DNA of 64,000 nucleotides from Rhodospirillales bacterium (GTDB lineage Bacteria > Pseudomonadota > Alphaproteobacteria > ATCC43930 > CGMCC-115725). The translations under genes and the position numbers were made by a program. Below the pieces are notes generated by a model, which saw nothing but the letters and a program-made list of their open reading frames with translations, had not been told where the DNA came from and did no database searches. Shown piece after piece: positions 4,666-28,265 of this stretch. Position 1 is the first letter of the stretch. Each line of letters begins with the position of its first letter. The stretch spans positions 62,001 through 126,000 of the forward strand of contig JAQGIC010000047.1 in the NCBI GenBank assembly GCA_028288725.1, read 5' to 3'.

Positions 4666-5028
4666 ATGACAATGTCGGATGAACGTCGCCAGCAGATCAG
4701 CGAGAAGGCCTATCGCCTATGGCAGACCGAAGGTCAGCCCCAGGGACGCGACCTCGATCATTGGGTCCAGGCCGAGGGGGAGGTGAGTTCGACCCAGGCC
4801 GAGACGAGCGGTTCGACCCAAGCCAACGAAGGCGAGGGTAACCGTACCGCCGCCCGCGCCTATAACCGCAAGGCCAAGCAGTTCGCTGAAAACGGCCCGG
4901 TCGAGCAGCAGGCACGCAAGGCCAAGGCCGACCTGGACGGCCCTGAAGGCAAGGCGTTACGCGAGGCCGAACTGATCGGTAAGAGCCACAGCCACGGCGA
5001 AGATCCTGCGGTCAGGCGATCCACGTGA
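4666..5028 (+). CDS. DUF2934 domain protein
   Basis: 120 residues. The N-terminal 45 residues match DUF2934 (helix with ISEKAYRLWQTEGQPQGRD, then a W), a short domain found in many alphaproteobacterial stress-associated proteins. The rest is polar, with repeated S/T/Q and a charged tail. A GAGGAG ribosome site precedes the ATG; a second ATG two codons later is equally possible. It ends in the region where the ecfG upstream sequence begins. It is probably part of the stress-protein group with the PRC-barrel gene; molecular function is unknown. Confidence 0.75.
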   Translation: MTMSDERRQQISEKAYRLWQTEGQPQGRDLDHWVQAEGEVSSTQAETSGSTQANEGEGNRTAARAYNRKAKQFAENGPVEQQARKAKADLDGPEGKALREAELIGKSHSHGEDPAVRRST

Positions 5029-5081
5029 AGCGGAATTCGTCGCTATTGACGGATCGAGAACTCGTTGATTGTCGGTCTGGC

Positions 5082-5107
5082 GGAACCTTGAATTCCGACC
5101 CATCGTT
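5082..5107 (+). promoter_or_regulatory. EcfG-type promoter upstream of ecfG (autoregulatory)
   Basis: GGAAC (5082-5086), 17-nt spacer and CGTT (5104-5107), a perfect match. It lies about 100 bp before the start chosen for ecfG. Its position argues that the much longer open frame beginning at 5025 is not the true protein start. Autoregulation of ecfG is known in several Alphaproteobacteria. Confidence 0.8.
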
Positions 5108-5204
5108 TGATCCTAGACACCAGACACATTCAGTCGAGCGCCTACGATCTGTTGACGATCGGGGAAACTCGCCGGCTCACATCCGATCAAGACTGGGGAT
5201 CAAT

Positions 5205-5780
5205 GTGGCCTATGATGATGAATTCAAGGCGGAATTGGTGGAAAATCTGCCGCATCTCCGCGCTTTTGCGCATTTGATTGCGCGAAATCATGCCCTTGCC
5301 GAAGACCTTGTCCAGGATACGATCGTCCGGGCGTTGGCCAATCGCCATCAATTCAAGCCCGGAACCAACCTCAAAGGCTGGCTGATCATCATCCTGCGCA
5401 ACCGATTCTTCAACGAGATGCGGCGGAGCAGCCGCAAATCCGAGGTCAGCATGGAGCATCAGGTCGATCTGGCCATGGTCGATGGCGGCCAGGAGATCGG
5501 CGTCGAGATCCGGGACTTCACGTCGGCCTTCAGGAACCTGCCGCCGACCCAACGCGAAGCGCTCGTGCTGGTCGGCGCCAGCGGCTTTTCCTACGAGGAG
5601 GCTGCGGAAATCGCCTGTTGCCCGGTCGGCACCATGAAAAGTCGGGTCTCGCGCGCCCGGGCAGAGCTGGAGAATCAGCTCCATGGTGTCGAGATGCCCG
5701 AAAAATGGGCCAGTCTCGGATTGAAGCCGGAAGCAGACCGCTCCCCGCCCGCTCCGGAGCCGCGCCGCGTCGGACGCTGA
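5205..5780 (+). CDS. ecfG: General stress response sigma factor EcfG (ECF15 family)
   Basis: 191 residues from the chosen GTG. Sigma region 2 spans about 8-75 (ELVENLPHLRAFA, LAEDLVQDTIVRALAN, TNLKGWLIIILRNRFFNEM) and region 4 about 105-160 (LPPTQREALVLVGASGFSYE, then VGTMKSRVSRAR). This closely follows EcfG of other Alphaproteobacteria. It directs RNA polymerase to GGAAC-N16/17-CGTT promoters under general stress and is held inactive by NepR until PhyR is phosphorylated. The open frame extends upstream to 5025, but homology begins near YDDEFKAEL, a GGGGA ribosome site precedes the GTG at 5205, and the EcfG promoter lies inside the longer frame. It is about 20 kb from nepR/phyR, not adjacent as is common. 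A strong terminator follows at once. Confidence 0.88.
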   Translation: MAYDDEFKAELVENLPHLRAFAHLIARNHALAEDLVQDTIVRALANRHQFKPGTNLKGWLIIILRNRFFNEMRRSSRKSEVSMEHQVDLAMVDGGQEIGVEIRDFTSAFRNLPPTQREALVLVGASGFSYEEAAEIACCPVGTMKSRVSRARAELENQLHGVEMPEKWASLGLKPEADRSPPAPEPRRVGR

Positions 5781-12734: not shown

Positions 12735-14884
12735 CAGATTGCCTCCCGATGCACGAACAGGGCGAGCGAGTGGGCTCGCAGGGGAAAGGGCCGGTGGGTC
12801 GTGATCTCGATGCCGCCCTCGATCAGGCCGGTTTCCTCGGCGGTATCGACCAGGGCGCCCCAGCGCATCGGCCGGGGTGTCTCGGGCGCGTGGAACACGA
12901 TGTCTTGGTGATGGGCGTTGATCAGGATCAGGAAGCTGACATCGACGTCACGCTGGCCGCTCAAGCCTCGATAATAGGCGCCGGCCCGGCCGTTCAGCAG
13001 ATAGCCCAGGCAGCGGGCATAGGGCTTGTGCCAGTCGTCGGACGTGTATTCCCGGCCTTCGGGCGTGACCCAGGTGATGTCCTTCAGCCCATCCGACTGC
13101 TCGGCGCCGCGCAGGAAGTGCGGGCGCGAGAACACGTGATGGTCCCGGCGCAGGCGGATCAGGAAGGTGACGAAGGACTGGAACTGCCGGTCATGCTCGG
13201 TGATGCCGGCCCAATCGATCCAGCTGAGTTCATTGTCCTGGCAATAGGCGTTGTTGTTGCCCTGCTGGGACCGGCCAAATTCGTCGCCAGACAACAACAT
13301 CGGCACGCCCAGCGACAACAGCAGGGCCGCGATCAGGTTGCGCTTCTGCTGACGCCGGAGCGCCAGGATCTTCGGATCGTCGCTCGGGCCTTCGACGCCG
13401 CAGTTCCAGGAATGATTGACGTCGGTCCCGTCGCGACTGTCCTCGCCATTGTCGGCATTGTGCTTCGCTTCATAGGAGACGAGGTCCTGCAGCGTGAAGC
13501 CGTCGTGGGCGGTGACGAAATTGATCGAGGCCCAGGGTCGGCGCCCGCCGTGACCGAAGATGTCGGACGAGCCGGCGAGCCGGCTGCCCATGTCGGCGAG
13601 CATGCCGTCGTCGCCCTTCCAGAACCGGCGGAGGACATCGCGATACTGCCCGTTCCATTCGGCCCAGCCGGGCGGAAAGCCGCCGACGCGGTAACCGTCC
13701 GGCCCCAGGTCCCAGGGCTCGGCGATCAGCTTCACCTCGTTCAGCACCGGATCCTGGCGGACGGCGTCGAGGAAGGCGCTGCCCTGGTCGAACGGCTGCT
13801 TCTCGCGCGCGAGGGTGGTCGCCAGATCGAAGCGGAAGCCGTCGACCCGCATCTCCGTCGCCCAATAGCGCAGCGAGTCCATGACCAGCTGCAGCACGCG
13901 CGGATGGTCGAGGTTCAGCGTGTTGCCGGTGCCGGTATAGTCGGTATAGAAGCGCCGATCCTCGTTCAGCCGGTAGTAGCTGAGATTGTCGATGCCGCGG
14001 AACGACAGGGTCGGCCCCAGGTGGTTGCCCTCGGCCGTGTGATTGTAGACCACGTCGAGAATGACCTCGATACCGGCCTCGTGCAGGCGGCGGACGGCAA
14101 TCTTCATCTCGTCGATGGCGCCGCTCGCCAGGTAGCGCGGCTCGGGCGCGAAGAAGCCCAGGGTGTTGTAGCCCCAGAAATTGACCTTGCCCCGCTGGAC
14201 GAGCGGTCGGTCGTTCAGGAAGGCATGGATCGGCAGCAGCTCGATCGCGGTCACGCCCAGTGCGACCAGATGATCGAGCATCGCCGGCGCCACCAGACCC
14301 GCGAGCGTGCCGCGAAAGCGCGGCTCCACATCGGGGTGGCACTGGGTCATGCCTTTGACATGGGCCTCCAGAATGATTGTCTCGGACCAGCTCGTGCGCG
14401 GACGGCGGTCGGGCCCCCAGGAAAAGGCACCCTCGACCACCTCGCATTTCGGCATGCCGCGGGCATTGTCGCGTCGGTCGAAGCTCAGATCGTCGCGGCT
14501 GCTGCCGGCGCGGAAGCCGAAATGGGCGTCGCTCCAGCGCAGCGGCCCGCGGAGCGACTTCGCATAGGGGTCGAGCAGCAGCTTGTGCCGGTTGAAGCGA
14601 TGACCGTTCCTGGGCTCGTAGGGCCCATGGCAGCGATAGCCGTAGAGCAGACCCGGCCGGGCCTCGGGCAGGTAGCCGTGCCAAGCCTGGTCGGTATATT
14701 CCGGCATGGCCAGGCGTGCCACCTCGCGGCTGCCGGTCGGGTCGAACAGGCAAAGATCGACCCCGGTCGCATGGGCTGAGAACAGGGAAAAATTCACGCC
14801 CGCGCCGTCCCAGGTCGCGCCCATCGGATAGGGCTTGCCGGGCAGCAGGATCGGATGCGGCGGCGGGGCATGGTCCAGGTTCAT
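12734..14884 (-). CDS. glgX: Glycogen debranching enzyme (isoamylase type)
   Basis: 716 residues. It hydrolyses alpha-1,6 branches of glycogen-type glucan, supplying linear maltodextrins to TreY. The N-terminal CBM48 (about 15-130, [20 protein letters not shown]) is followed by a GH13_11 barrel with [16 protein letters not shown], nucleophile Asp353 ([10 protein letters not shown]), acid/base Glu389 ([10 protein letters not shown]) and Asp461 (TAHDGFTL). The true start is the ATG at 14884 overlapping the glgB stop (ATGA); a longer open frame upstream lies inside glgB and has no homology. It ends in a TGATG overlap with treZ. Confidence 0.95.
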
Positions 14885-17055
14885 AGGCGCTCCGCCGTCA
14901 GGATCAGGGTCGCGAGCGGCGGCAGGGTGAGGACGACCGACTGGCCGTGGCCGTGCGACGGCACGGGTTCGCTGTCGACCCCGCCCGCATTGCCCATGTC
15001 GCTGCCGCCATAGAGGCCGGAATCGGTGTTGAGCCGTTCCGTCCAGCGCCCGGCGCGCGGCACGCCGACGCGATAGCCCCGGCGCGGCATCGGCGTGAAA
15101 TTGCACAGGACCAGGGCCATGTTCCGCCGACCGGCGTCGAAGCGCAGGAAGCTCAGCACGCTCTGATCGCTGTCGGTCGCGTCGACCCAGGCGAAGCCTT
15201 CCTGCAGGGCGTCCAGCCGATGCAGCGCGGTCTCGTCGCGATAGAGCTGGTTGAGGTCGCGCACCAGCCCGTGCAGGCCGGCATGCATCGGGTCGTCGAG
15301 CAGGAACCAGTCGAGCTGGGCGTCGTGGTTCCACTCGCGCTCCTGGCCGAACTCGCACCCCATGAACAGGAGCTTCTTGCCCGGATGCGCCCACATGAAG
15401 CCGTAATAGGCGCGCAGGTTGGCGAATTTCTGCCAACGGTCGCCCGGCATCTTGTTGATGAGCGAGCCCTTGCCATGCACCACCTCGTCATGGCTCAGCG
15501 GCAGAATGAAATTCTCCGAGAAGCCGTAGAGCAGGCCGAAGGTCAGTTTGTTGTGGTGGTATTTCCGGTGGACCGGGTCGAGGCTCATGTACTGGAGCGT
15601 GTCGTGCATCCAGCCCATGTTCCATTTGAAGCCGAAGCCCAGGCCGCCCAGGTATGTCGGCGCCGACACCATCGGCCAAGCAGTCGATTCCTCGGCGGCC
15701 GTGGTGACGCCTGGCGCTTCCGAGAACACCAGCTCGTTGAAGCGGCGCAAGAAATCGACCGCGTCCAGATTCTCCCGGCCGCCGAACTTGTTCGGCACCC
15801 ACTCACCGGCCTTGCGGCTGTAGTCTAGGTAGAGCATCGAGGCGACGGCATCGACGCGCAGCCCGTCCACATGGAAATTCTCCAGCCAGGACAGCGCGTT
15901 GGCGATCAGGTAATTCACCACCTCGGGCCGGCCGTAGTTGAAGATCAGCGTGTTCCAATCCTGATGGAAGCCCTGGCGCGGGTCGGCATGCTCGTAGAGA
16001 TGCGTGCCGTCGAACAGGCCCAAGCCATGCTGGTCGGTCGGGAAATGTCCCGGCACCCAGTCGAGCCACAGCGCCAGGCCGGCGCCATGGCAGGCATCGA
16101 CGAAATAGCGGAAATCGTCGGGCGTCCCGAACCGGCTGGTCGGCGCGAACAGGCCGATCGGCTGATAGCCCCACGAGCCGTCGAACGGAAATTCCGAGAT
16201 CGGCAGCACTTCGATATGGGTGAAGCCCAGGTTGGCGACATAGGGCACCAGCCGATCGGCCAGCTCGCGATAGCTGAGGAAGCGGCCATCCTCGTGTTTG
16301 GACCAGGAGCCCAGATGCAGCTCGTAGATCGAGATCGCGGCCTCGCGTGCGTTGCGCTCGGCGCGGCTCTTCATCCAGGCCTCGTCGCGCCAGACATGGC
16401 TCGGCAGGGCGGCGACGACCGATGCGGTCGCCGGCGGTCGTTCCGCCTGGAGCGCGACCGGGTCGGCCTTCAGCGGCAGCAACGCGCCGTCAGGACCCTT
16501 GATCTCGTATTTGTAGGAGGCACCGGCGGCGACGTCGGGGATGAACAGATCCCAGACCCCGGCGCCCGGATGCTTGCGCATCGCGTGGCGCCGGCCGTCC
16601 CAGTCGTTGAAGCTGCCGACCACGCTGACCGCCCGGGCATTGGGTGCCCAGACCGCGAAGCCCGTGCCGGCGACATCGTCCATGCTCATCGGATGGGCGC
16701 CGAGGCGGCTAAAGGCGCGGCGATGGGTGCCTTCGCCCAACAGATGCAGATCCATCTCCCCCAGCACCGGTCCGAAGCGATAGGGGTCTTCGAGATCGAC
16801 GATGCGATCGCCGGAACGGGCGCGCAGGCGATAGGCGAACCGCTTCTTCTTGCCCAGCCGGGCCTCGAACAGCCCGTCCTCGGTCTTGCGCTCGAACGGG
16901 GCGATCTCGGCCCCGTCCGCGCGGTCGAGCACGGCCAGGCTGTCGGCCCAGGGCACGAACGCACGGATCACCAGCCCGCCTGCCTCGTGCATGCCCAGGA
17001 ACCCGAACGGATCGCTCCGATAGGTTTCGTCGAGACGCTTGGCTGTCTCAGACAT
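14881..17055 (-). CDS. glgB: 1,4-alpha-glucan branching enzyme
   Basis: 724 residues, the usual length for GlgB with two N-terminal CBM48-type modules (about 12-110 and 120-220). It introduces alpha-1,6 branches into the linear glucan made by GlgE. The GH13_9 barrel shows [13 protein letters not shown], nucleophile Asp402 ([17 protein letters not shown]), acid/base Glu455 ([10 protein letters not shown]) and Asp523 ([13 protein letters not shown]). The ATG lies 8 bp inside the end of treS-mak and the stop overlaps glgX by ATGA. With GlgE and TreS-Mak it makes up the trehalose-to-glucan branch of the operon. Confidence 0.97.
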
Positions 17056-20000
17056 GGGCGCTTCCCTCGGTCAGTAGATCGATGATCCCTTGGATCGGAA
17101 TGGCGAGCCAGGCGGGTCGGTTGGCCAGTTCGTAGGCGATCTCGTAGAGCGCCTTGTCGATCAGCATCAGGTCGATCAGCGCCTGGGCGCCGGCGGGGTC
17201 CCTGGGCCAACTTTCGGTGCCTTCGATACCGGCGCGATAGGCGGCCATGAACGCCGCGATCGACCGATCGCGCCAATCGCGGCACATGGCCTGGAGGGCC
17301 GCGTTGTCGACCGACGGCAAATCGGCGGCGGCGCGTACGGCGGCGGCGGCGGCATAGTCGATCGAGCGGATCATGCCCGCGACATCCTTGATCGGCGTGT
17401 GCTTCTGCCGCCGTTGTTCGGTCGTACGGTTGGGCTCCCCCTCGAAATCGATGATCGCGAAGTCGGCCTGGGCGACCAGAACCTGGCCCAGATGATAGTC
17501 GCCATGCAGGCGGGTCTTCATCGCCTCGATCTTCAGGTTGCGCGACACGTCGATCCGGGCGAGCAGCTTGTCGCCGAGATCGAGCAGCTGCGTGATCGCC
17601 GGATCGGGCGCGATCGACTGCAGTGCGGCCAGCCGTTTGAGCATGGCTGCCGCACTCGCCTTCACGCCGTCGCGCCATTCGGCCGCGTCGGCGGCCGTGA
17701 TCGGCTCCGGCGCGAAGGCGGGGTCGGTCTTGCCGCTCGGGCAGAGCGCCCGGTGCAATTCGGCGGTCTGGTGGCCCAGGCGACCGATCAGCTCCAGGAA
17801 ATAGGCATGCGGGTCGCTCTGCGGGATCTGGGCATCGGCCGGTTCGCCCCCGCCGCCCCAGCGTTCCTGGAGGACCCGCTTCAGGTGATCCTGGGCATAG
17901 GACCAAGCATCGCCCTGATTGGCGACATAGCCGGTCAGCACGCCCAGCGCCGTCACGCCGCCGTCGCGGTCGATGCGTTCGATCGTGCCCAGCAACGGCG
18001 GCGTGCCGGCATAGCCGGCTTTCTCGGACAGGAAACGGCACATCTCGATTTCCGGATGCACGCCGTCGACCAGCCGCCGGTAGAGTTTCAGGACGCCGTA
18101 ATCCTGCACGGCGATCGAGCTGTTGGATTGCTCGACGCCCAACTGGCGGATCGCCGGCTCCTTCGGGAACGGATGGTCGGCGAATTTTGCGCTTGCGCGG
18201 AACAGCACCTTGCCGCCGCCGCGGAACGGCAGCACCCGCTCGGCGCCGATCGCGTCGATCACGGCCAGGGCCCAGCCGGCATGGATGCCGCCATCGAACA
18301 ATGCCCCCTCGGCGCGGAAGCGGCGGATATGGGCGAGCGTCGTGGGCTGGACCGCGACCCGCGTCTCGGAACCGGGCGCGCCCCAGACCAGGCCGAGCGG
18401 CATCAGATAGTGCTGGACCGCGCCATCGTTCAGCGTCGCCTCGACGATCGCCAGGCTCCAGGCCTCGGCCGCGTCGGGGCGCGCCAGGTCGGCGGCGTCC
18501 ACGATTTCTGCATCGGCCAGGCCGATGTCCTTGGCGGCGAACCAGCGCTGGGTCGGCAGGAACTGGCGCATCACGGTATGGCCCAGTTCCGATGCGGCGG
18601 CCCCGGCCATGAAATCGTCCCAGCCGCTGCGCAGCACCAGCGTGATCGGCTCGAGGCCGCTGTCGCGTCCGGCCTCGACCATCGCCAGCCCCCCTTCGAT
18701 CTGACTGGGCTCCAACAGCTTGAACCAAAAGAAACTATGACCGGCCATGGTCAGGTGATAGGGCCGGTCGCCGATCGGCGGGAAGCTCGACAGGCCCAGC
18801 AATTCGACCGGCACCCGACCGCGATAGGGCGCGAGGTCCAGCTCGACCGATTGGGCGGCGCGCGACAGGTTGACGACGCAGAGTACCAGCTCGTCTTCCA
18901 GGCTGCGGATATAGGCCAGCACCTTGCGGTTGTGCGGATAGAGGAAGACGAGTTTGCCGCGGCCCATCGAGCGCAGATCGCGTCTGACCGCCATCAGACG
19001 GCGCATGGAATTCAGCAGCGAGGTCGGCGAGCGGCTCTGCGCCTCGACATTGACCGACAGAAAACCGTATTCCGCATCCTGCACCGGCGGCAGGAACAGG
19101 CGGGCGGGATCGACGCGGGAGAAGCCGCCGTTGCGGTCGGGCGACCATTGCATCGGCGTGCGCACACCGTCGCGGTCGCCCAGATAGACATTGTCGCCCA
19201 TGCCGATCTCGTCGCCGTAATAAAGCACGGGCGTGCCGGGCATCGACAGCAGGATCGAATTCAGCAGATCGATCCGGCGTCGGTCGTTCTGCATCAACGG
19301 CGCCAGACGCCGGCGGATGCCCAGGTTGATGCGCATGCGCCGGTCGCCGGCGTAGAAGTCCCACAGATAGTCGCGCTCGCGGTCGGTCACCATTTCGAGC
19401 GTCAGCTCGTCGTGATTCCTGAGGAAGATCGCCCATTGGCAGCCGTCGGGAATATCCGGGGTCTGGCGCATGATGTCGGTGATCGGATGGCGGTCTTCCT
19501 GGGCGACCGCCATATAGATGCGCGGCATCAGCGGGAAATGGAATGCCATGTGGCATTCGTCGCCCTTGCCGAAATAGGGCAGCACGTCTTCCGGCCATTG
19601 GTTCGCCTCGGCCAGCAGCATCTTGTCGGGATAGTCAGCCTCGATCGCGGCGCGGATCTTGCGCAGCACGACGTGGGTCTCTTCCAGGTTCTCGTTGTTG
19701 GTGCCGTCGCGCTCGACCAGATAGGGCACGGCGTCGAGCCTCAACCCGTCGACGCCCAGATCGAGCCAGAAGCGCATGACGTTCAGCACCGCGCGCAGGA
19801 CGGCCGGGTTGTCGAAATTCAGATCCGGCTGATGCGAATAGAACCGATGCCAGTAGTAGGCATGGGCGACCGGATCCCAGGCCCAGTTCGAGGTCTCGGT
19901 GTCGCAGAAGATGACCCGCGTGTCCTGATAGCGCTGATCCGTGTCCGACCAGACGTAGAAGTCGCGATGGTTCGAGCCCGGCTTGGCGACCCGGGCGCGC

Positions 20001-20401
20001 TGGAACCAGGGATGCTGGTCCGAGGTATGGTTGATCACCAATTCGGTGATCACGCGCAAGCCCCGGCGATGGGCCTCCCGGACGAAGGCCTTGAAGTCGC
20101 TCATCGTGCCGTAGGCTGGGTTGACGTCCTTGTACTCGCCGATGTCGTAGCCGTCGTCGCGCAGCGGCGAGGGATAGAACGGCAGCAGCCAGATCGCCGT
20201 GACGCCCAGGTCCTGCAGATAGTCGAGCTTCTCGGTCAGACCCGCGAAATCGCCGATGCCGTCGTTGTCGGAATCGTAGAAGGATTTGATGTGCAGCTCG
20301 TAGATGATCGCGTCCTTGTACCAGTCGCGTTCGATCAGGATCTGCTCGGTCTCGCGTGCCGAGGCGGCCGTGGTTTCGGGTTTCTTCTCTCGGCGGCTCA
20401 T
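17048..20401 (-). CDS. treS: Trehalose synthase / maltokinase fusion
   Basis: 1,117 residues. The N-terminal 560 or so form TreS, which interconverts maltose and trehalose: nucleophile Asp223 ([15 protein letters not shown]), acid/base Glu265 ([12 protein letters not shown]), Asp331 ([12 protein letters not shown]). The C-terminal 550 or so form a maltokinase (Mak/Pep2) that makes maltose-1-phosphate with ATP; its kinase core shows [15 protein letters not shown] (Brenner-type motif) and [11 protein letters not shown]. Such fusions are common in proteobacteria with the GlgE pathway and channel trehalose toward GlgE. The start is the ATG overlapping the glgE stop (ATGA); the longer upstream frame lies within glgE. 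It is the second gene of the operon. Confidence 0.95.
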
Positions 20402-23343
20402 AAGGCAACTCCAACAGGCCGGACGCGCAGGATCATCGCGGGATAGGTCTCGGGGTCGAGCAGGACCACGTGCCGGGCGCCGGTCCACCAGCGGGCCTCG
20501 CCGGTGAACAGATCCTCGGTCTCGAAACTGCCGTCCGGCGGCAAACCCATCAGATCCAGGGGAAACACGATCTCGGAGCGCACGACATGGCGGGGGTCGA
20601 GCGTGACCGCGATCAGGACCCGGTCGGACCGATCGGGCGTGATCTTGCTGTAGAACAGCACGTCGCCATGGGACGCTTCGTGGAAGCGCAGATTGTCGAA
20701 CAGGCGCAGCGCCGGGCTGTCGCGGCGCAGGCGGTTGATCGCCGTGATCTCGGGCTTGATGTTGCCCGGTCGGTCCCAGTCCCAGACCTTGTACTGGTAC
20801 TTTTCGGAATTGAGGAATTCCTCCTTGCCCGGTACGGCTTCCGCCTCGCACAGCTCGTAACCGTTGTAGAGGCCGTAGAGCGGCGACAGGGTCGCGGCCA
20901 GCACCAGGCGGATGATGAAGCCCGGGCGGCCGCTGCTCTGCAGATACCAGGGCAGGATGTCCGGCGTGGTCGGGAAGAAATTCGGCCGATAATATTCGAC
21001 CGATTCGCCCTGGGTCAGTTCGGTCAGATAGTCGGCGATCTCGCGCTTGTCGTTGCGCCAGGTGAAATAGCTGTAGGACTGGCTGAAGCCGATCTTGGCC
21101 AGGCGCCGCATCATCTTGGGCCGGGTGAAGGCCTCGGCCAGGAACAGTACCTCGGGGTTCCGGGCGCGGATGTCGGCGATCAGCCATTGCCAGAAAGCCA
21201 CCGGCTTGGTGTGCGGATTGTCGACACGGAAGATCTTGACGCCCTGGTCGACCCAGAACCGCACCACGTCGCGGAGCGCCGCCCACAGGCTCTGCCAATC
21301 GGGCTGGTCGAAATCGACGTTGACGATGTCCTCGTAGCGCTTGGGCGGGTTCTCGGCGTATTTGATCGTGCCGTCGGGCCGGCGCTTGAACCAGTTCGGA
21401 TGTTCGGTGAGCCAGGGATGGTCCGGCGCGCATTGCACGGCGAAATCCATCGCCAGTTCCATGCCGTGGCCGTGGAGCGCCCGGAGGAATTCGCGGAATT
21501 CCTCGAGCGTGCCCAGGTCCGGGTCGATCGCGTCATGGCCGCCGGCGGCGCTGCCGGTGGCATAGGGGCTGCCGGGCTCGCCCGGTTTCGCGGTGGTGCT
21601 GTTGTTGCGGCCCTTGCGGTTGATCGTGCCGATCGGGTGGATCGGCACGAAATAGACCACGTCGAAGCCCATCGCCTTGATCTCGGGCAGGCGGGCGGCG
21701 CAGTCGGCGAAGCTTGCGGCGCGGGTCGGATCCGTGCCCTGGCTGCGGGGGAACATCTCGTACCAGGCGGCCGTGCGCGCGCCTTCGCGATCGATCATCA
21801 CCTGGCCGATCGGATCCTGGAAGCTGAGATCGCCCTGGTCGGGCACCCGTGCCATGGCGTGCGCGACCCGGTTGGACAGCATGAAAGCGGCCTGGTCGTC
21901 TTCCTGCAGGGTGGCCGCCTCGTCCAGCAGAGTGCGCAGCCGGGTCTCGTCGTCGCCTTCGGCACGGGCGGCGGCGGCCTCGACCAGTGCGCGGCCTTCG
22001 ATCAGCTCGAGCCCGAGCGGCCGGCCGGCCGCGCGTTTCTTGGTGACTTCATCGCGCCAACTGGCGAAATGATCGGTCCAGGCCGCGACGGCGAAGCGGG
22101 CTTCGCCGATGCGATCGAGCGCGATGCGGCCGCCCCAGCGGTCGTTGTCGATATGATGCATCGGCACTATGCGCCAGGCGTCGGCGCCCTGCGAGCGCAG
22201 CCAAAGGGCGGCCCGGATCTTGTCGTGACCGTCGCGGAAGATATCGGCCTGGACCTCCAGTACCTCGCCGGCGATGCGCTTGACCGGGAAACGGCCGCCG
22301 TCCAGTTCCGGCGTCACGCGTTCGATGATGATGTGCGCGGGGACGGCGGGTTTCGGCAGGTCGGCGCCGGCGAACAGATGCTCCCGCTCGCGGATGATGC
22401 GGACCAGGCGGATTTCACCCGGCTCGAGCAGCCGCGGCGAGGCCGGGAACAGGCGCGTCGGCGCGCCGGGTGTCACGTCCCGGGCATCGATGCCATCGTC
22501 CTCGATCAGGCCCAGCAGGGCATCGAGATCGACCGGCTGCGGCAGGGCCGGATCCGTGTTGATCAGCACCAGCAGCGTATCCGTCGGCGCCTCGCGCAGG
22601 ATCGCGGTGACCGACGAACCGCCGGTATCGAGCCGCATCATGCGGCCTTCCTCGTTCAGGCTCGGCAGCAAGGCCTTCAGGCGGTTGATCTCGGCAAGGG
22701 CGGCATCGTCGCGTCCCAGCCAGCTGGCCGGCACGATGATGCCGGTCGAGAGCGCGGCCGCCATCACCAGCCGGCGTCGGCGGGCAGGGGCGTCGTCGCC
22801 AGGCTCGGCCGGGAGGCCCGGCAGATCGGGAAAGCCCAGCGAGGCGGCGATCGGACGGGACGCGGCCTGCTGTTCCAGGAACCAGCCGGTGCGGCCGTCC
22901 CACCAGCGCACGCTGTTCAGCAGCAGGTCGAACCCGGCGCCGCGCAAAGACGAAAAATCCTGGGCGTCGCGCCCCAAGGCTTCTGCCGCGAAGAGGCAAC
23001 CGGGCGCCGCCGCATGGGCGGCATCGGTCACGGTGCGCCACTCGGTCGCCGCCCGGCGATGGGCGGTGACGGCCAGAAAGTCATCGACGCCGTCGTCCAG
23101 CGCTTGGCGCACGACCACGATGGCGGAAGCATCGGCGGCCACGGCCGCCATCACGCGCAATCCCGCTTCCCTGGCCGCCGCGCTCAGGCGTGCCAGCATC
23201 GGTCGATCCTGAGTCTCGGCCGGCGCCAGCAACGCCACCGTGGTGAATCCCAGTGCGGCAATCGACGGCAGCCGTTCGATCCAGTCGGGAAGATCCTCGG
23301 GATGGAGTGGCGACAGGGCGAGAATGCGGGGAGCCGTCTGCAT
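20398..23343 (-). CDS. glgE: Alpha-1,4-glucan:maltose-1-phosphate maltosyltransferase
   Basis: 981 residues, longer than the roughly 660-700 of actinobacterial GlgE. It transfers maltosyl units from maltose-1-phosphate onto growing alpha-1,4-glucan. Residues from about 338 match GlgE: the N/S beta-sandwich and helical domain (about 338-500), then the GH13_3 barrel with FPRSQGTDPTRAASF, nucleophile Asp708 (IFRVDNPHTKP) and acid/base Glu737 (LFLAEAFTRPKMM). The first 335 residues are an additional amylase-like barrel segment without recognisable catalytic acids. The ATG at 23343 follows a GGCGG ribosome site and is the first start with homology. It is the first gene of the seven-gene operon, with an EcfG-type promoter about 70 bp upstream. 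Confidence 0.93.
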   Translation of the reverse strand: MQTAPRILALSPLHPEDLPDWIERLPSIAALGFTTVALLAPAETQDRPMLARLSAAAREAGLRVMAAVAADASAIVVVRQALDDGVDDFLAVTAHRRAATEWRTVTDAAHAAAPGCLFAAEALGRDAQDFSSLRGAGFDLLLNSVRWWDGRTGWFLEQQAASRPIAASLGFPDLPGLPAEPGDDAPARRRRLVMAAALSTGIIVPASWLGRDDAALAEINRLKALLPSLNEEGRMMRLDTGGSSVTAILREAPTDTLLVLINTDPALPQPVDLDALLGLIEDDGIDARDVTPGAPTRLFPASPRLLEPGEIRLVRIIREREHLFAGADLPKPAVPAHIIIERVTPELDGGRFPVKRIAGEVLEVQADIFRDGHDKIRAALWLRSQGADAWRIVPMHHIDNDRWGGRIALDRIGEARFAVAAWTDHFASWRDEVTKKRAAGRPLGLELIEGRALVEAAAARAEGDDETRLRTLLDEAATLQEDDQAAFMLSNRVAHAMARVPDQGDLSFQDPIGQVMIDREGARTAAWYEMFPRSQGTDPTRAASFADCAARLPEIKAMGFDVVYFVPIHPIGTINRKGRNNSTTAKPGEPGSPYATGSAAGGHDAIDPDLGTLEEFREFLRALHGHGMELAMDFAVQCAPDHPWLTEHPNWFKRRPDGTIKYAENPPKRYEDIVNVDFDQPDWQSLWAALRDVVRFWVDQGVKIFRVDNPHTKPVAFWQWLIADIRARNPEVLFLAEAFTRPKMMRRLAKIGFSQSYSYFTWRNDKREIADYLTELTQGESVEYYRPNFFPTTPDILPWYLQSSGRPGFIIRLVLAATLSPLYGLYNGYELCEAEAVPGKEEFLNSEKYQYKVWDWDRPGNIKPEITAINRLRRDSPALRLFDNLRFHEASHGDVLFYSKITPDRSDRVLIAVTLDPRHVVRSEIVFPLDLMGLPPDGSFETEDLFTGEARWWTGARHVVLLDPETYPAMILRVRPVGVAL

Positions 23344-23535: not shown

Positions 23536-23718
23536 ATGCCCGATACGCCCGCGCTGCCGCCCGAAGTACCCCCGCCGATCCCGATGCCTGCGGATATTCC
23601 GCCGCCGGCCACGCCCAGCCCCGGGCCGGATACGCCCGAGCCGGTCTCGCCGGTTCCGGGTCCCGATATTCAGCCGCCCTCGACACCGCCGACCGGCCCT
23701 TCGCCGACGCGCTATTAA
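23536..23718 (+). CDS. Small proline-rich protein, unknown function
   Basis: 60 residues, roughly 40 percent Pro with Thr, Ser, Asp and Glu; no signal peptide or membrane segment and almost surely disordered. Gene status rests on a GGAGG ribosome site 10 nt before the ATG. A possible but off-consensus EcfG promoter lies upstream (GGAAC at 23488-23492 with GGTT at a spacing of 15). It is divergent from glgE, and its stop codon overlaps that of the convergent sensor kinase. High-GC low-complexity frames can arise by chance, so confidence is moderate. Confidence 0.5.
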   Translation: MPDTPALPPEVPPPIPMPADIPPPATPSPGPDTPEPVSPVPGPDIQPPSTPPTGPSPTRY

Positions 23719-26033
23719 ATGGTTGCGCGGCCGGTCGCGGCTGAATCGATCAGTGTCGCCGCCGGCGCGTCCAGATGCCAGACGATGCCGGTCTCGGCGA
23801 AATCGAATGCCACCGTGCCGCGGAGCGCGCGGGCGACCAGGCGGCGGGTGATGTCGGTGCCGAAGCCGCGCCGGGTCGGTGGCACGACCGGCGGTCCGCC
23901 CGTCTCGGCCCAGCGCAGCCACAGCCGCTCGCCCTTTTCGGGATCGGACAGGAGACCCCAGCGGATCGAGACGCGGCCTTCGGGCACCGACAGCGCGCCG
24001 TGCTTGGCGGCGTTGGTCGATAGTTCGTGCAGGGCCAGTCCCAGATAGGGCACCGCGGCGGATGCCAGGCTGACGTCCGGTCCTTCGGTGGCGATCTGGC
24101 CGCTGCCGTCGATGTAATGGCCCAGTTGCGAGCGCAGCAGGTCGTCCAGCCGCGTGCCGGCCCATTCGACCTGGGTCAGCAGATCATGGGATTGCGCGAG
24201 GCTCTGCAGGCGGGCGGAGAAGCGATGGCCGAAATCCTCGAGCGAGCTCGCTTGCGCCAGGCTCTGGCGCGCGATCGCCTGGGTCACCGCCAGAATGTTC
24301 TTCGAGCGATGGGACGTCTCTCGCATCAGCAGATTGAGCCGCTGTTCGCGCTCGCGGATCTCCTCGATCGTGACGCTGCCCTCGGCCGCGACACTCCGGC
24401 CGGCGCTCGGAAACTCGTCCGCGGTGGCTTTGAGCGAGGCGAGCCGATGGGCCTGCTGCGGTTCGTCGAGCGGCACGGCGATCCGGGCCTCGGTCGGGTC
24501 GGCCGCGACCATCGGAACGGCCTTCAGCTGGCGCAGATAGGCTTTGAGCAATTTGGCCCGGAGCGGCGGGCGATCGGCATCGCAGGGCGCCAGACCGCCG
24601 ACCGACAGGCGCAGCATGCCCTGGCGCCGCTCGGCGGTAATGACCAGCATCGCCGCCGGATGATCGGCCAGGGCCTTCAGGTAGGGTGGCAGGACCGCCG
24701 CCAGATACAGGCCCAGCGAGATCGCCCGGTCGAGATCGATCCAGATCGGCTCGACATCCAGACCCAGATCGATCCGATGCGGTGGCGCCTCGGTCGATTC
24801 CCTGAGCGCGGCGACCACGCTGCGCAGCAGATCCTGCATGCGCACGCCGGTGACGTCGCCCGAGTCGTAGGCGACTCGATAGGCCACGGCCATGGCGCGG
24901 ACATAGTCCTCGACGAAGCGGATCTCCTCGCGCCGCTCCGGCGGCATATCCTGGCGATGCAGGCTCAAAAGGCTGGTGATGACCTGGAAATTGTTTTTCA
25001 CCCGATGGTGCAGTTCCAGCAGCAGCGCGCTCTTTTCCTCCGCCGTCTCCCGCAGCAATGCGGCGCGCCGGGCGGCATCGTTGGCCATGTGATTGAGCGA
25101 TTGGCCGAGCCCCGCCAGTTCGGTCGGCGCCGTCGCCACCTTGGCGCGCACCGAATGATGTCCGCGGCTGTGCGCGGTCGCGATCCGGCGCAAATAGGTG
25201 ATCCAGCGCAGCACCGATTGATCGACCGCCCAGATGGCGCCGGCGACCAGCGCGATCAGCATGAACGTGCCCTGGGCGAGCGTGGTCCAGAGCCGCCATT
25301 GATCGGTGCCGAGGAACGGGCGGATCTGCAGGGCCACGACCCGCACGGGGCTATGGGCCGAGACGGGGGCCAGCAGATAATGGAACGGCTCTGCGCCGGC
25401 GCTGGTCAGCGGATAGTCGCCGCGAACCGGGGTGGCGGGCAGGGCGTTCGGCCACCATTGTGGCGGCGCGTCCGATCGATGGCGTTCGGCCAGCACGCCC
25501 GAGGGCGCCACCAATGCGATCCCGCCCAGGAATCGGCTCGCCTCCGGCTGAAGGATGCGATCCAGCGTGTCGGACGAGACGCGCAGGACCACCATCGCGC
25601 CCGGCATCGGCCGGGCGATCAGCAGATGCGGCCCGTCCATGAGCAAGGCCGGCGCCACGCCCGTCGACAGTTGAGCGCGCAATTGCTCCTGCAGAGCGGC
25701 GTTGAGACCATCGCATGGCGCGCTGTCGTTGCCGACGAGGAAGGCCTGGTCGAAGCGCGGGTGGCGCGCTAGGTACGCCTCCGGCAGGGCGCAGACAGCC
25801 CCGACCGGCTCGATGTCATCGGCCTCCTGCAGCAGGCTCTGGAGCCGCTCGGCGACGAGCAGGATCGCGGTCTCGGATGCGTGGAATTGGAAGCGCCGGA
25901 GCGCGAGATCGCGGTTCATCGCCCAGATCAGCGCCAAAACGAGGATCGGGGCGATGACGACGAGCATCAGCAGGAGGATGCGTGAACGCAAGCCTCGCAA
26001 CAGCGACGGTCGCCTCGGTCGGCCGGTCATCAT
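23715..26033 (-). CDS. Membrane sensor kinase with two histidine-kinase modules (HisKA_2-like + HWE)
   Basis: 772 residues. Transmembrane segments at about 18-39 and 252-270 enclose a periplasmic sensor of about 210 residues without a family I recognise. A HAMP-like linker leads to a first phosphoacceptor helix of HisKA_2 type (LHHRVKNNFQVITSLLSLH, His343). The ATP-binding domain that follows is degenerate: at the N-box position it reads GLYLAAVLPPYLKAL, without the Asn. A second complete HWE kinase follows: SHRSKNILAVTQAIARQ with His575, N-box LALHELSTNAAKHGALS with Asn674, the WAE signature at 708-710 and G-box RRGFGTDI at 721-728. It lies 27 bp downstream of nepR in the same direction and opposite phyR, the position of the PhyR kinase in Alphaproteobacteria, so it probably phosphorylates PhyR. 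Confidence 0.85.
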   Translation of the reverse strand: MMTGRPRRPSLLRGLRSRILLLMLVVIAPILVLALIWAMNRDLALRRFQFHASETAILLVAERLQSLLQEADDIEPVGAVCALPEAYLARHPRFDQAFLVGNDSAPCDGLNAALQEQLRAQLSTGVAPALLMDGPHLLIARPMPGAMVVLRVSSDTLDRILQPEASRFLGGIALVAPSGVLAERHRSDAPPQWWPNALPATPVRGDYPLTSAGAEPFHYLLAPVSAHSPVRVVALQIRPFLGTDQWRLWTTLAQGTFMLIALVAGAIWAVDQSVLRWITYLRRIATAHSRGHHSVRAKVATAPTELAGLGQSLNHMANDAARRAALLRETAEEKSALLLELHHRVKNNFQVITSLLSLHRQDMPPERREEIRFVEDYVRAMAVAYRVAYDSGDVTGVRMQDLLRSVVAALRESTEAPPHRIDLGLDVEPIWIDLDRAISLGLYLAAVLPPYLKALADHPAAMLVITAERRQGMLRLSVGGLAPCDADRPPLRAKLLKAYLRQLKAVPMVAADPTEARIAVPLDEPQQAHRLASLKATADEFPSAGRSVAAEGSVTIEEIREREQRLNLLMRETSHRSKNILAVTQAIARQSLAQASSLEDFGHRFSARLQSLAQSHDLLTQVEWAGTRLDDLLRSQLGHYIDGSGQIATEGPDVSLASAAVPYLGLALHELSTNAAKHGALSVPEGRVSIRWGLLSDPEKGERLWLRWAETGGPPVVPPTRRGFGTDITRRLVARALRGTVAFDFAETGIVWHLDAPAATLIDSAATGRATI

Positions 26034-26060: not shown

Positions 26061-26369
26061 TTAGCGATCCTCGCGCTTGGACTTGGCTGCGGCCGGCTGC
26101 TCCGACTGGGCGCTTATCTTGGTGTCCAACTGCTGCAACAGATCGAGGAACCGATCCGGGACGGGTTCGCGCAGGACGGAATCATACATTGCCCGCAGCC
26201 GCCCCCCGATATGGGCCTCGACGTCCCCGTCCAGCGATATGCTTTGCGGCGCGGGCGTCCCGCCAACCACTTTCAGGCCAGGTCCCCTCGGTTCGCGATC
26301 GCCGTTCGATGCTCGCTTGGCCATCGAGACACTCCAGTCGTGCGCGTCGGGCAATCCGCCGTCGGCCAT
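26061..26369 (-). CDS. nepR: Anti-sigma factor NepR
   Basis: 102 residues. The NepR core is in the C-terminal half (HIGGRLRAMYDSVLREPVPD, then RFLDLLQQLD), two helices that wrap around EcfG or, under stress, the PhyR sigma-like domain. The flanking N-terminal 55 and C-terminal 15 residues are polar and probably disordered, as in other NepR proteins. The ATG at 26369 follows a CGGAG ribosome site; longer frames upstream have no support. It is divergent from phyR, has its own EcfG-type promoter and is followed by the sensor kinase after 27 bp. Confidence 0.93.
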   Translation of the reverse strand: MADGGLPDAHDWSVSMAKRASNGDREPRGPGLKVVGGTPAPQSISLDGDVEAHIGGRLRAMYDSVLREPVPDRFLDLLQQLDTKISAQSEQPAAAKSKREDR

Positions 26370-26454
26370 GTTTATTCTCCGGTCCATTGCGACCCCTGAT
26401 AGGAGTGTGATCCGCGAAATTTTGCCGGACTCAGAAATCGGGGTCCGTCCGCAA

Positions 26455-26526: not shown

Positions 26527-26580
26527 AGCCAGTATATTCCAGTGGTCTCCACCACCCAGCGCCTTTATTTCGGGAACCTC

Positions 26581-27381
26581 ATGTCGATTTCCTCAAAGAT
26601 CGCTCCTCATCTTCCTTATCTGCGCCGGTTCGCCCGGGCGCTGGCCGGCAGCCAGGCGGGCGGCGACGCCTATGCCGTGGCGACGCTGCAGACGCTCGTC
26701 GAGGAGCCGGCGCTGCTGCCGGATGGAGAAGACGTCCGGATCGGGCTCTATCGGTTGCTGCTGCGGATCTGGTCGACCGTGTCCGTGAACGATCTGGTGC
26801 CCGAATCGACGTTGCGCCAACTGGGCGACGCCGCGCGGCACAGCTTGGAATCGCTGGCGCCGCGCTCGCGCATCGCCTTCCTGCTGACGGCCGTCGACGG
26901 TCTGTCCCAGGATCAGGTCGCCCAGGTGCTCGACTGTTCCGCCAACGATGCCGGGGCGCTGATCGCGACCGCGCAGGAAGAGCTGGCCCAGCAGATGGCG
27001 ACGGACGTGCTCATCATCGAAGACGAGCCGATCATCGCCATGGACCTGGAGACGCTGGTCGAAAGCCAGGGTCATCGCGTCATCGGAGTGGCGACCACCC
27101 GGACCGAGGCGCAGGAACTCGTGCGGCTCAACCGTCCGGGCCTCGTGCTGGCCGATATTCAGCTGGCCGACGGCAGTTCGGGCCTCGACGCGGTCAACGA
27201 TATTCTGAAGTCGTTCGACGTTCCGGTGATTTTCGTCACGGCGTTCCCGGAGCAATTGCTGACCGGCGAGCGGCCGGAGCCGGCCTTCCTGGTGACCAAG
27301 CCGTTCCGCATCGAAGCGCTCAAGGCGGTCATCGGCCAGGCGCTGTTCTTCTCGGAAACCGCCAAAGCCCCGGCGCGGTAG
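26581..27381 (+). CDS. phyR: General stress response anti-anti-sigma regulator PhyR
   Basis: 266 residues. Residues 1-135 are the EcfG-like mimic domain (IAPHLPYLRRFARALAGSQ; LAPRSRIAFLLTAVDGLS), and 142-260 a receiver with acidic pocket IIEDEP (145-150), phosphoacceptor Asp192 (LADIQL), Thr in FVTAFPE and Lys240 (TKPF). When phosphorylated, PhyR binds NepR and frees EcfG. The start is the ATG at 26581, where homology with other PhyR proteins begins; a longer frame starts at 26542. It is divergent from nepR and followed by a 26-bp palindrome before the convergent repressor gene. Confidence 0.96.
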   Translation: MSISSKIAPHLPYLRRFARALAGSQAGGDAYAVATLQTLVEEPALLPDGEDVRIGLYRLLLRIWSTVSVNDLVPESTLRQLGDAARHSLESLAPRSRIAFLLTAVDGLSQDQVAQVLDCSANDAGALIATAQEELAQQMATDVLIIEDEPIIAMDLETLVESQGHRVIGVATTRTEAQELVRLNRPGLVLADIQLADGSSGLDAVNDILKSFDVPVIFVTAFPEQLLTGERPEPAFLVTKPFRIEALKAVIGQALFFSETAKAPAR

Positions 27382-27427: not shown

Positions 27428-28171
27428 TCAGACGCCGCCACCACGCCAGATCACTTTGCCGACGACCTTGATCTCGGACGCGAGTTCGCTCGAGATCACC
27501 TCGGGCTGATAGACCGGATTGTCGCTGATGACATACAGCGTGCCGTCGAATTTACGCTGAACGCGTTTGACCAGGCGCTCGCTCCGCGCCTCGAACACAT
27601 AGATGCCGAACTCGGTGAAGGCCTCCGCCCGCGTATCGATGAGCAGCAGGTCGCCGTCGCGGATCCCGGGTTCCATCGAATCGCCGACGGCGGAAATCAG
27701 CATGACCCGCTCCGGGTTCAGGTCGAACACCGCCCGGATCCAGTCTTGTCGAAAGGCGATGAATTCGGCCGGCTGTTCCGGCGCCGGCCTGCCGCTGCCG
27801 GCCGCGGCCGCTTTCGGCTTCTGCGGCAGCAGCAGGAATTCGTCGAGCGGCGGCCGATCGGTTCCGTCACGACCGACCGCGTGACGGTGGCTCGATGCGT
27901 CGCGCAGAATCGGCTGATCGCCCTCGCCGCGCACCAGCCAGGCGATGTCGACCCCGGCGGCGTCGGCAAAGCTGATCAGCCGCTCACGGCTGGGCTCCGC
28001 TTCGCCGCGCAACCATTTGCGCAAGGCCGAGGGCGATACGCCGGCGGCTTTGGCCAGCTTATCGGCGCTCGGCCAATGATCGAGCACGAACTGCAGGCGT
28101 GCCGTGAAGGCTTGCCGCTGGCCCCCGTGCTGAAAGGGGGAGGATGCGATCTCGTCGATTTTATTCCGCAC
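27428..28171 (-). CDS. Phage-type repressor: HTH + S24 (LexA-like) peptidase
   Basis: 247 residues from the GTG at 28171. The N-terminal HTH is at about 20-75 (DKLAKAAGVSPSALRKWLRG), a Pro/Ala-rich linker at about 110-140, and the C-terminal S24 peptidase fold at about 150-240 with the catalytic Ser in GDSMEPGIRDGD and the catalytic Lys in LVKRVQRKFDG. This is the layout of self-cleaving phage repressors and of the Mu-like c repressor, inactivated through RecA during DNA damage. It is divergent from a Ner-like protein. A start at 28240 is possible but adds residues without homology. No integrase or structural phage genes are nearby. Confidence 0.85.
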   Translation of the reverse strand: MRNKIDEIASSPFQHGGQRQAFTARLQFVLDHWPSADKLAKAAGVSPSALRKWLRGEAEPSRERLISFADAAGVDIAWLVRGEGDQPILRDASSHRHAVGRDGTDRPPLDEFLLLPQKPKAAAAGSGRPAPEQPAEFIAFRQDWIRAVFDLNPERVMLISAVGDSMEPGIRDGDLLLIDTRAEAFTEFGIYVFEARSERLVKRVQRKFDGTLYVISDNPVYQPEVISSELASEIKVVGKVIWRGGGV

Positions 28172-28265
28172 GAATCGGCACTCTTCCGCTTGAGGTGTTG
28201 GCACTTTTCCGCATAAACCTAGAAAGCTCCACCGCGGCATGATTCAATTGAAGTACATTTCGCTC

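Follow-up and report, generated by a model that had tools for sequence, protein, structure and literature searches.

A predicted fusion of a PhyT/PhyK-type protein with an HWE kinase at the phyR-nepR locus of a Rhodospirillales bacterium

The locus and the fusion gene

We analysed a 64,000-nucleotide stretch of the genome of a Rhodospirillales bacterium (assembly GCA_028288725.1, contig JAQGIC010000047.1, positions 62,001 to 126,000), hereafter the window, in which the gene for a 772-residue membrane sensor lies next to nepR and phyR (Table 1). A preliminary description made from the sequence alone had read this sensor as a chain with two histidine-kinase modules, the first of them degenerate, and the open reading frame (ORF), the Pfam domains and the motifs confirmed this layout. 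The start of phyR was set at the ATG that fits its relatives, within an ORF that opens at 26542.

Table 1. Positions of the fusion gene, its parts and related features in the window
Feature	Position	Strand	Basis
PhyT::HWE fusion sensor, whole gene, 772 residues	23715..26033	-	ATG start; Pfam; even codon-position GC
N-terminal sensor part, residues 1-273	25215..26033	-	Hydropathy; Cys81/Cys107 conservation; AlphaFold2
Module 1, residues 274-530: HAMP-like linker, HisKA_2 DHp, CA-like domain	24444..25214	-	Pfam; PhyK model; AlphaFold2; structural matches
Module 2, residues 558-765: HWE kinase	23739..24362	-	Pfam; motifs; Brucella LOV-HK 5epv; AlphaFold2
nepR, anti-sigma factor, 27-base gap upstream of the fusion gene	26061..26387	-	Pfam PF18557, 60.3 bits; start codon manually chosen
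phyR, divergent from nepR	26581..27381	+	Pfam PF22029, PF22233, Response_reg; NCBIfam PRK09191, 349.5 bits, above cut-off
Probable ecfG, ~20 kb from nepR	5025..5780	+	PRK families; tree placement
EcfG-type promoter-like site GGAAC-N16-TGTT, 67 bases upstream of the nepR start codon	26455..26479	-	Pattern search
EcfG-type promoter-like site GGAAC-N17-CGTT, before the probable start of ecfG	5082..5107	+	Pattern search

On the 772-residue chain, Pfam identified a HisKA_2 domain at residues 340-413 and an HWE_HK domain at 572-653, together with two matches below the cut-offs, HAMP at 283-318 and a weak C-terminal HATPase at 658-743. Hydropathy placed two transmembrane segments at about residues 14-43 and 252-275, flanking a periplasmic domain that contains Cys81 and Cys107. 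In module 1 the stretch HHRVKN begins at residue 342, so the histidine of the HRxxN motif is His343 (HHRVKNN). Module 2 contains NAAKHG from residue 674 (N-box Asn674), WAETGGP from 708 (W708-A-E710) and GFG at 723, and no sensor domain was found by Pfam between the modules. The GC content by codon position was uniform throughout the frame; because it is even along the ORF, the join between the modules does not look like a frameshift.

Module 1 as a PhyT/PhyK-type protein

By its sequence relationships, module 1 is a PhyT/PhyK-type protein. The NCBIfam PhyK model NF051872 covered residues 259-513 with 125.5 bits, which is under its whole-protein cut-off of 750, and the same model gave the PhyT of genome G374 a score of 143.2 bits (G, C and L numbers denote genomes, contigs and loci). 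When the fusion was aligned with 8 PhyTs from a whole-sequence search, Cys81, His343 and the RVKNN stretch were invariant; of the two periplasmic cysteines, only Cys81 was listed as invariant in this 9-protein alignment. Both Cys81 and Cys107 were invariant among 22 aligned PhyT/PhyK proteins (the fusion and 21 from named genomes), a set that was collected with the HRVKN pattern and is therefore invariant for it by construction. Both cysteines were also kept in 11 of the 11 members of a further set, five of which are shared with the 22. It is possible that the pair forms a disulfide or redox sensor; the function of Caulobacter PhyK requires a periplasmic cysteine. Phylogenetically, module 1 fell into a clade with the PhyTs of Kiloniellaceae and Chthonobacter (96*; this value and the values 97*, 99*, 87 and 83 given below come from quick trees without bootstrap), and a larger tree placed it with the PhyTs of Kiloniellaceae, Chthonobacter and family f213 (97*).

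The preliminary description had located His343 in HHRVKNN, followed by an ATP-binding domain without the N-box Asn, and both statements held. At the N-box position module 1 reads AAVLPPYLK, compared with, for example, EAITNAQKH in PhyT/PhyK relatives that keep the N-box, and the loss concerns module 1 only. No HATPase match at E <= 1 was obtained for module 1 scanned alone, nor for the PhyTs of Kiloniellaceae, Chthonobacter and Sphingobium. The Asn was likewise missing from the PhyTs of Kiloniellaceae, Chthonobacter and f213 (4 of 4 inspected) and from those of G834, G571, G178, G350, G162 and Sphingobium; Caulobacter PhyK and many other relatives retain it. Since PhyT relatives have it too, the degeneration of module 1 was inherited. 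A degenerate catalytic and ATP-binding (CA) domain was rejected as the novelty of this protein, because it is common to other PhyTs.

Structure prediction upheld the proposed dimerisation and histidine phosphotransfer (DHp) and CA fold of residues 340-530. In the AlphaFold2 model, residues ~251-520 were confident, with 10-residue means of the predicted local distance difference test (pLDDT) of 70-92, mostly above 80. Module 1 was modelled with DHp helices at 304-362 and 365-390, followed by an alpha/beta CA-like domain. Its best structural matches were chains of the EL346 kinase (VIA Z 15.2 and 14.4, root-mean-square deviation 4.7 and 3.8, 168 and 167 residues aligned), and many other kinase CA domains matched at Z 12-13. 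The Foldseek list included the phosphotransferase ChpT (4fpp, 4fmt), with a deviation above 10. Alignments that mixed PhyT and HWE sequences matched the PhyT helix to module 2, and these were excluded from folding; the whole-chain model was built on PhyT alignment rows only, and module 2 is consequently poor there.

Module 2 as an HWE kinase

As read from its motifs, module 2 is an intact HWE kinase, in agreement with the complete module (His575, Asn674, WAE) of the preliminary description. His575 was invariant across 15 aligned HWE domains. Because module 2 was poor in the whole-chain model, it was folded apart and reached a mean pLDDT of 84.9. The nearest solved structure by sequence was the Brucella LOV-HK domain (5epv, E 1.2e-34). 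In the class sample of 385 genomes, G331, G374, G238 and G303 gave the best HWE matches, and the matches listed for 397 genomes of another order included G566, G834, G810 and others, at no more than 52% identity.

Many of these relatives are encoded beside phyR. A phyR gene was nearby in 10 of the 14 opened loci of the closest HWE relatives, namely 4 of 7 from the class sample (G374, G238, G121, G162) and 6 of 7 from the other order. In a first tree, whose bootstrap had not settled, module 2 was part of a 21-row set (98/90) with phyR-locus kinases of Kiloniellaceae and G238. A later tree placed it within a 43-row side (99*), where the nearest kinases by path, those of G566, G554 and G810, all adjoin phyR. 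The HWE relatives carry PAS, MASE1, ETR1_N or phytochrome domains. We also considered module 2 as a recent copy of the other HWE kinase of the genome, on contig C49; this was rejected, since the C49 kinase belongs to a different clade.

Gene arrangement at other phyR loci

For comparison, 53 other stretches with phyR were available. Similarity to the fusion protein, not random sampling, determined which loci were compared; they include many short ones and some near-duplicates (L069/L209). A single-module PhyT without an HWE kinase was present in 39 of the 53, a PhyT with a separate HWE kinase in 6, an HWE kinase only in 6 and neither in 2 (L169, where the contig ends, and L172). A two-module protein occurred in 0 of the 53, which bears out the earlier statement that PhyR-locus kinases normally have one module.

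PhyT and a separate HWE kinase surround one phyR in L069 and L209 (Kiloniellaceae), L180 (G099), L183 (G162), L349 (G834) and L350 (G571). Five of these six PhyTs have lost the N-box Asn, and that of G099 keeps it. The order HWE - phyR / nepR - ecfG - phyT was found in L069, L209, L349 and L350. More generally, 43 of the 45 PhyT-bearing stretches have ecfG placed between phyR and phyT, the exceptions being L221 and Sphingobium L278; at the fusion locus, unlike in the usual order, no ecfG separates phyR from the phyT-type gene. Its absence from the usual place has a partial precedent in Sphingobium L278, which, like the fusion locus, has the phyT-type gene immediately after nepR, and in which ecfG lies beyond phyR. 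The position of nepR directly before the sensor was rejected as a unique trait, because L278 has the same.

Across lineages, several had both PhyT and an HWE kinase near phyR and others only one. In 43 genomes of the order, a PhyR sigma-like domain above 40 bits was detected in 5 (G000, which is the genome of the window, G013, G039, G040 and G041). G042, of the same order, has a real PhyR at 35.2 bits, with 179 bits to the PhyR of the window. The sister species G010 had no PhyR sigma-like domain above 32 bits and no match to the fusion sensor. The stress system may be patchy within the order.

Searches for further fusions

Among 258 HisKA_2/HWE ORFs in the compared loci, only the fusion has two phosphoacceptor domains; the 257 others become 251 after ORFs contained in others are dropped, and smaller earlier sets held 217 and 253. 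No match spanning both modules was listed in 39 genomes of the family, in 43 of the order (including the 39), in 385 of the class (two candidates per genome scored) or in 61 of the order of G374, and there was none among the matches listed for the 397 genomes of another order, also with two candidates each. Of 804 matching plasmid records, none had a place covering 80% of the fusion query, and a scan of the named genomes with the single fusion protein as query gave no match. With two to three candidates scored per genome, the absence of other fusions is not proven by these searches. In G013, of the same family, a related phyR stands at a contig end, and two HWE fragments also lie at contig ends. 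A report of a PhyT-HWE fusion was not among the open-access literature matches listed, nor in the available portions of PMC10359499 and PMC4558063. Judged from these comparisons, the joined PhyT::HWE form is new and has been seen once, each half being known.

Candidate EcfG and neighbouring genes

The product of the ORF listed as ecfG in Table 1 is probably EcfG. Its best families, PRK12547, PRK12516 and PRK12546, are those of the Kiloniellaceae (G374) EcfG, with scores of its own below the cut-offs, and in a tree it grouped with the EcfG proteins of phyR loci (87, long branch). The ORF was delimited mechanically; homology starts from about residue 61, and the true start is probably near 5205. 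The sigma factors of C140 and C80 were rejected as EcfG, both grouping with other family sigma factors; for the C140 factor, the sister genome G010 has a counterpart at 94%. A pattern search with the EcfG promoter consensus found 5 sites in the window, where 1.03 were expected; of 100 shuffles, 1 had as many as five.

Between the candidate ecfG and the fusion gene lies a trehalose/glycogen cluster (6192-23340, minus strand) with TreY, MalQ, TreZ, GlgX, GlgB and TreS-maltokinase; its last ORF, 20398-23340, gave no match at the threshold used for the cluster. Beside phyR, 27428-28240 (minus strand) encodes a repressor-like helix-turn-helix protein with an S24 peptidase domain. PADLOC gave zero matches.

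Other kinases and single-domain receivers of the genome

A HisKA_2 search of the genome found four places, the fusion, C119, C103 and the C49 HWE kinase (below cut-off), and the whole fusion protein as query found the same four; the survey used these two queries. Single-domain receivers adjoin the HWE/HisKA_2 kinases of C49 and C119 (L176, L177). The C49 kinase (L176, 1705-5234) is a CheB-CheR-PAS-HWE protein of 1054 residues, and the end of its gene overlaps the receiver gene. This receiver reads PFVFVTGYG, one residue off the SdrG/MrrA motif PFxFATG(G/Y), and its best NCBIfam receiver model gave 54.9 bits against a cut-off of 151.

Proposed mechanism and alternatives

In Sphingomonas melonis, PhyT (formerly PhyP) accepts phosphate on His341 from SdrG~P and passes it to PhyR; it also tethers unphosphorylated PhyR, and its ATPase domain is degenerate (PMC5898713). 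Removal of phyT in S. melonis succeeds only in backgrounds with an impaired response (PMC5898713). Caulobacter PhyK is a HisKA_2 phosphotransferase from MrrA to PhyR (PMC5964349). In the species studied, the phosphotransferase gathers phosphate that comes from several distinct kinases.

We favour, as the probable reading, that the fusion unites a membrane-anchored PhyT/PhyK phosphotransferase with an HWE kinase, two proteins that some relatives encode separately around the PhyR-NepR-EcfG core. In the routing that we infer, a signal sensed by the PhyT part would control module 2, which would autophosphorylate on His575 using ATP. The phosphoryl group could then pass from module 2 directly to PhyR, with module 1 keeping PhyR close to the kinase at the membrane, or from module 2 to a single-domain receiver, then to His343 and on to PhyR. 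PhyR~P would bind NepR and EcfG would be freed, and the fusion would thereby hard-wire one kinase to the phosphotransferase. Most likely, module 2 is the source of phosphoryl groups for PhyR and module 1 docks PhyR at the membrane.

Several observations weigh against this proposal. No Response_reg domain was found in the chain by Pfam, and the exact PFxFATG(G/Y) motif had 0 matches in the genome itself, by a pattern that likewise gave none in 20 of 29 further genomes; the pattern is both insensitive and unspecific, matching in 9 of 30 genomes, and of the 10 places that it matched only 5 look like receivers. The kinship of the two halves has its own weak points. The closest PhyT relatives are distant (33-37% identity at best) and the branch of the window is long in the larger PhyT tree; the placement of module 2 inside its clade is weak (83 with G566), and phyR was absent from the opened stretches at G331, the best match in the class sample, G303 and G169, as well as at G563 of the other order. 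The whole-chain model, with a predicted template modelling score of 0.39, holds no information on the relative placement of the modules. As there is no second example, nothing points to selection on the fused state, and the function proposed here rests on inference from a single protein.

Phosphorelays alternate His and Asp residues. Since the chain is without a receiver, a direct His575-to-His343 transfer is not expected. The preliminary description had suggested that module 1 accepts phosphate, either from module 2 or from another kinase; its kinship with PhyT makes an acceptor role probable, while direct transfer from module 2 is doubtful for the reason just given. A relay within one chain, in which a single membrane sensor would make the phosphoryl group and deliver it to PhyR docked on the same molecule, is put forward tentatively. 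In the species studied, kinase and phosphotransferase are separate proteins linked through a diffusible receiver hub. If true, the one-chain relay would replace this hub by proximity, or would need a receiver only for the His575-to-His343 crossing within a dimer.

The two routes to PhyR are special cases of the phosphotransferase-kinase proposal and draw on different evidence. It may be, although we would not lean on it, that PhyR is a direct substrate of module 2, in which case module 1 would only tether or sequester PhyR and His343 would have no part in transfer. The Pak kinases of S. melonis phosphorylate PhyR directly in vitro with NepR present, and PhyT binds unphosphorylated PhyR (PMC5898713); the lack of an exact SdrG/MrrA motif in the genome also fits. 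Against such a direct route, His343 still stands in the HRVKNN setting of working phosphotransferases, which suggests that it is used, and two single-domain receivers adjoin HWE/HisKA_2 kinases of the genome (L176, L177). The relay route, in which module 2 and other kinases would load a receiver that passes the group to His343 and PhyR, has a comparable, limited claim. It would follow the Pak-SdrG-PhyT-PhyR scheme, with steps one and three carried by the same chain, and the biochemistry of PhyT/PhyK supports it (PMC5898713, PMC5964349), as does the near-motif receiver whose gene overlaps the end of the C49 HWE kinase gene. That receiver, with its low model score, is a candidate SdrG/MrrA only.

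Other explanations depart further from the phosphotransferase-kinase proposal. We regard it as unlikely that module 1 is mainly structural, serving dimerisation and signal transmission from the membrane to module 2 with His343 vestigial: the lost N-box Asn and the lack of a sensor domain between the modules, whereas HWE relatives have such domains, agree with this, but the kept HRVKNN and the PhyT kinship do not. That module 1 is a PhyR phosphatase opposing the module 2 kinase, as the preliminary description had offered, seems improbable indeed. The idea goes back to the original proposal for PhyP, but phosphatase activity of PhyT on PhyR was not detected in vitro according to PMC5898713, whose authors leave a switch in vivo possible. 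Finally, an assembly or annotation artefact could be imagined, as no other genome had the fusion in the searches made, and we give it hardly any credence. The gene is a single open frame with even codon-position GC on a 129-kb contig of an assembly with a completeness score of 99.66%, and a random join would rarely preserve the reading frame, complete domains and both of these partners at the locus.

If the phosphotransferase-kinase proposal is right, the fusion would be another wiring of the well-studied general stress response, and a natural fusion of this kind would amount to a direct functional link between the phosphotransferase and one kinase. PhyT was initially regarded as a phosphatase and PhyK as a kinase, and the fusion bears on how far kinases reach PhyR directly as opposed to only via the SdrG/MrrA relay. 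It would also offer a single protein in which the roles of His343 and His575 are separable by point changes.

Comparison with known systems

TodS-type kinases also have two kinase modules per chain, with a receiver between them. As the fusion has no Response_reg match, a TodS-like tandem kinase was rejected. The Paks of S. melonis are of HWE/HisKA_2 type, like module 2, and phosphorylate SdrG and PhyR in vitro (PMC5898713); unlike the fusion, they are cytoplasmic, separate proteins with genes scattered in the genome. The phyR-locus HWE kinases (Kiloniellaceae L209, G554, G566 and G810) are among the nearest relatives of module 2 and adjoin phyR, but they are separate genes with N-terminal parts of their own. 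Caulobacter crescentus PhyK shares the HisKA_2 type with the fusion, whose module 1 its NCBIfam model matches, whereas its CA domain is well conserved and it has a single module. PhyT of Sphingomonas melonis Fr1 has the phyR locus, the membrane anchor, a putative periplasmic sensor, the HRxxN DHp (His341 compared with His343) and the degenerate ATPase domain in common with the fusion (PMC5898713), and differs in being a single module without a fused kinase. Compared with the preliminary description, module 1 is assigned to a characterised family, and the novelty is its fusion with an HWE kinase that is encoded separately elsewhere.

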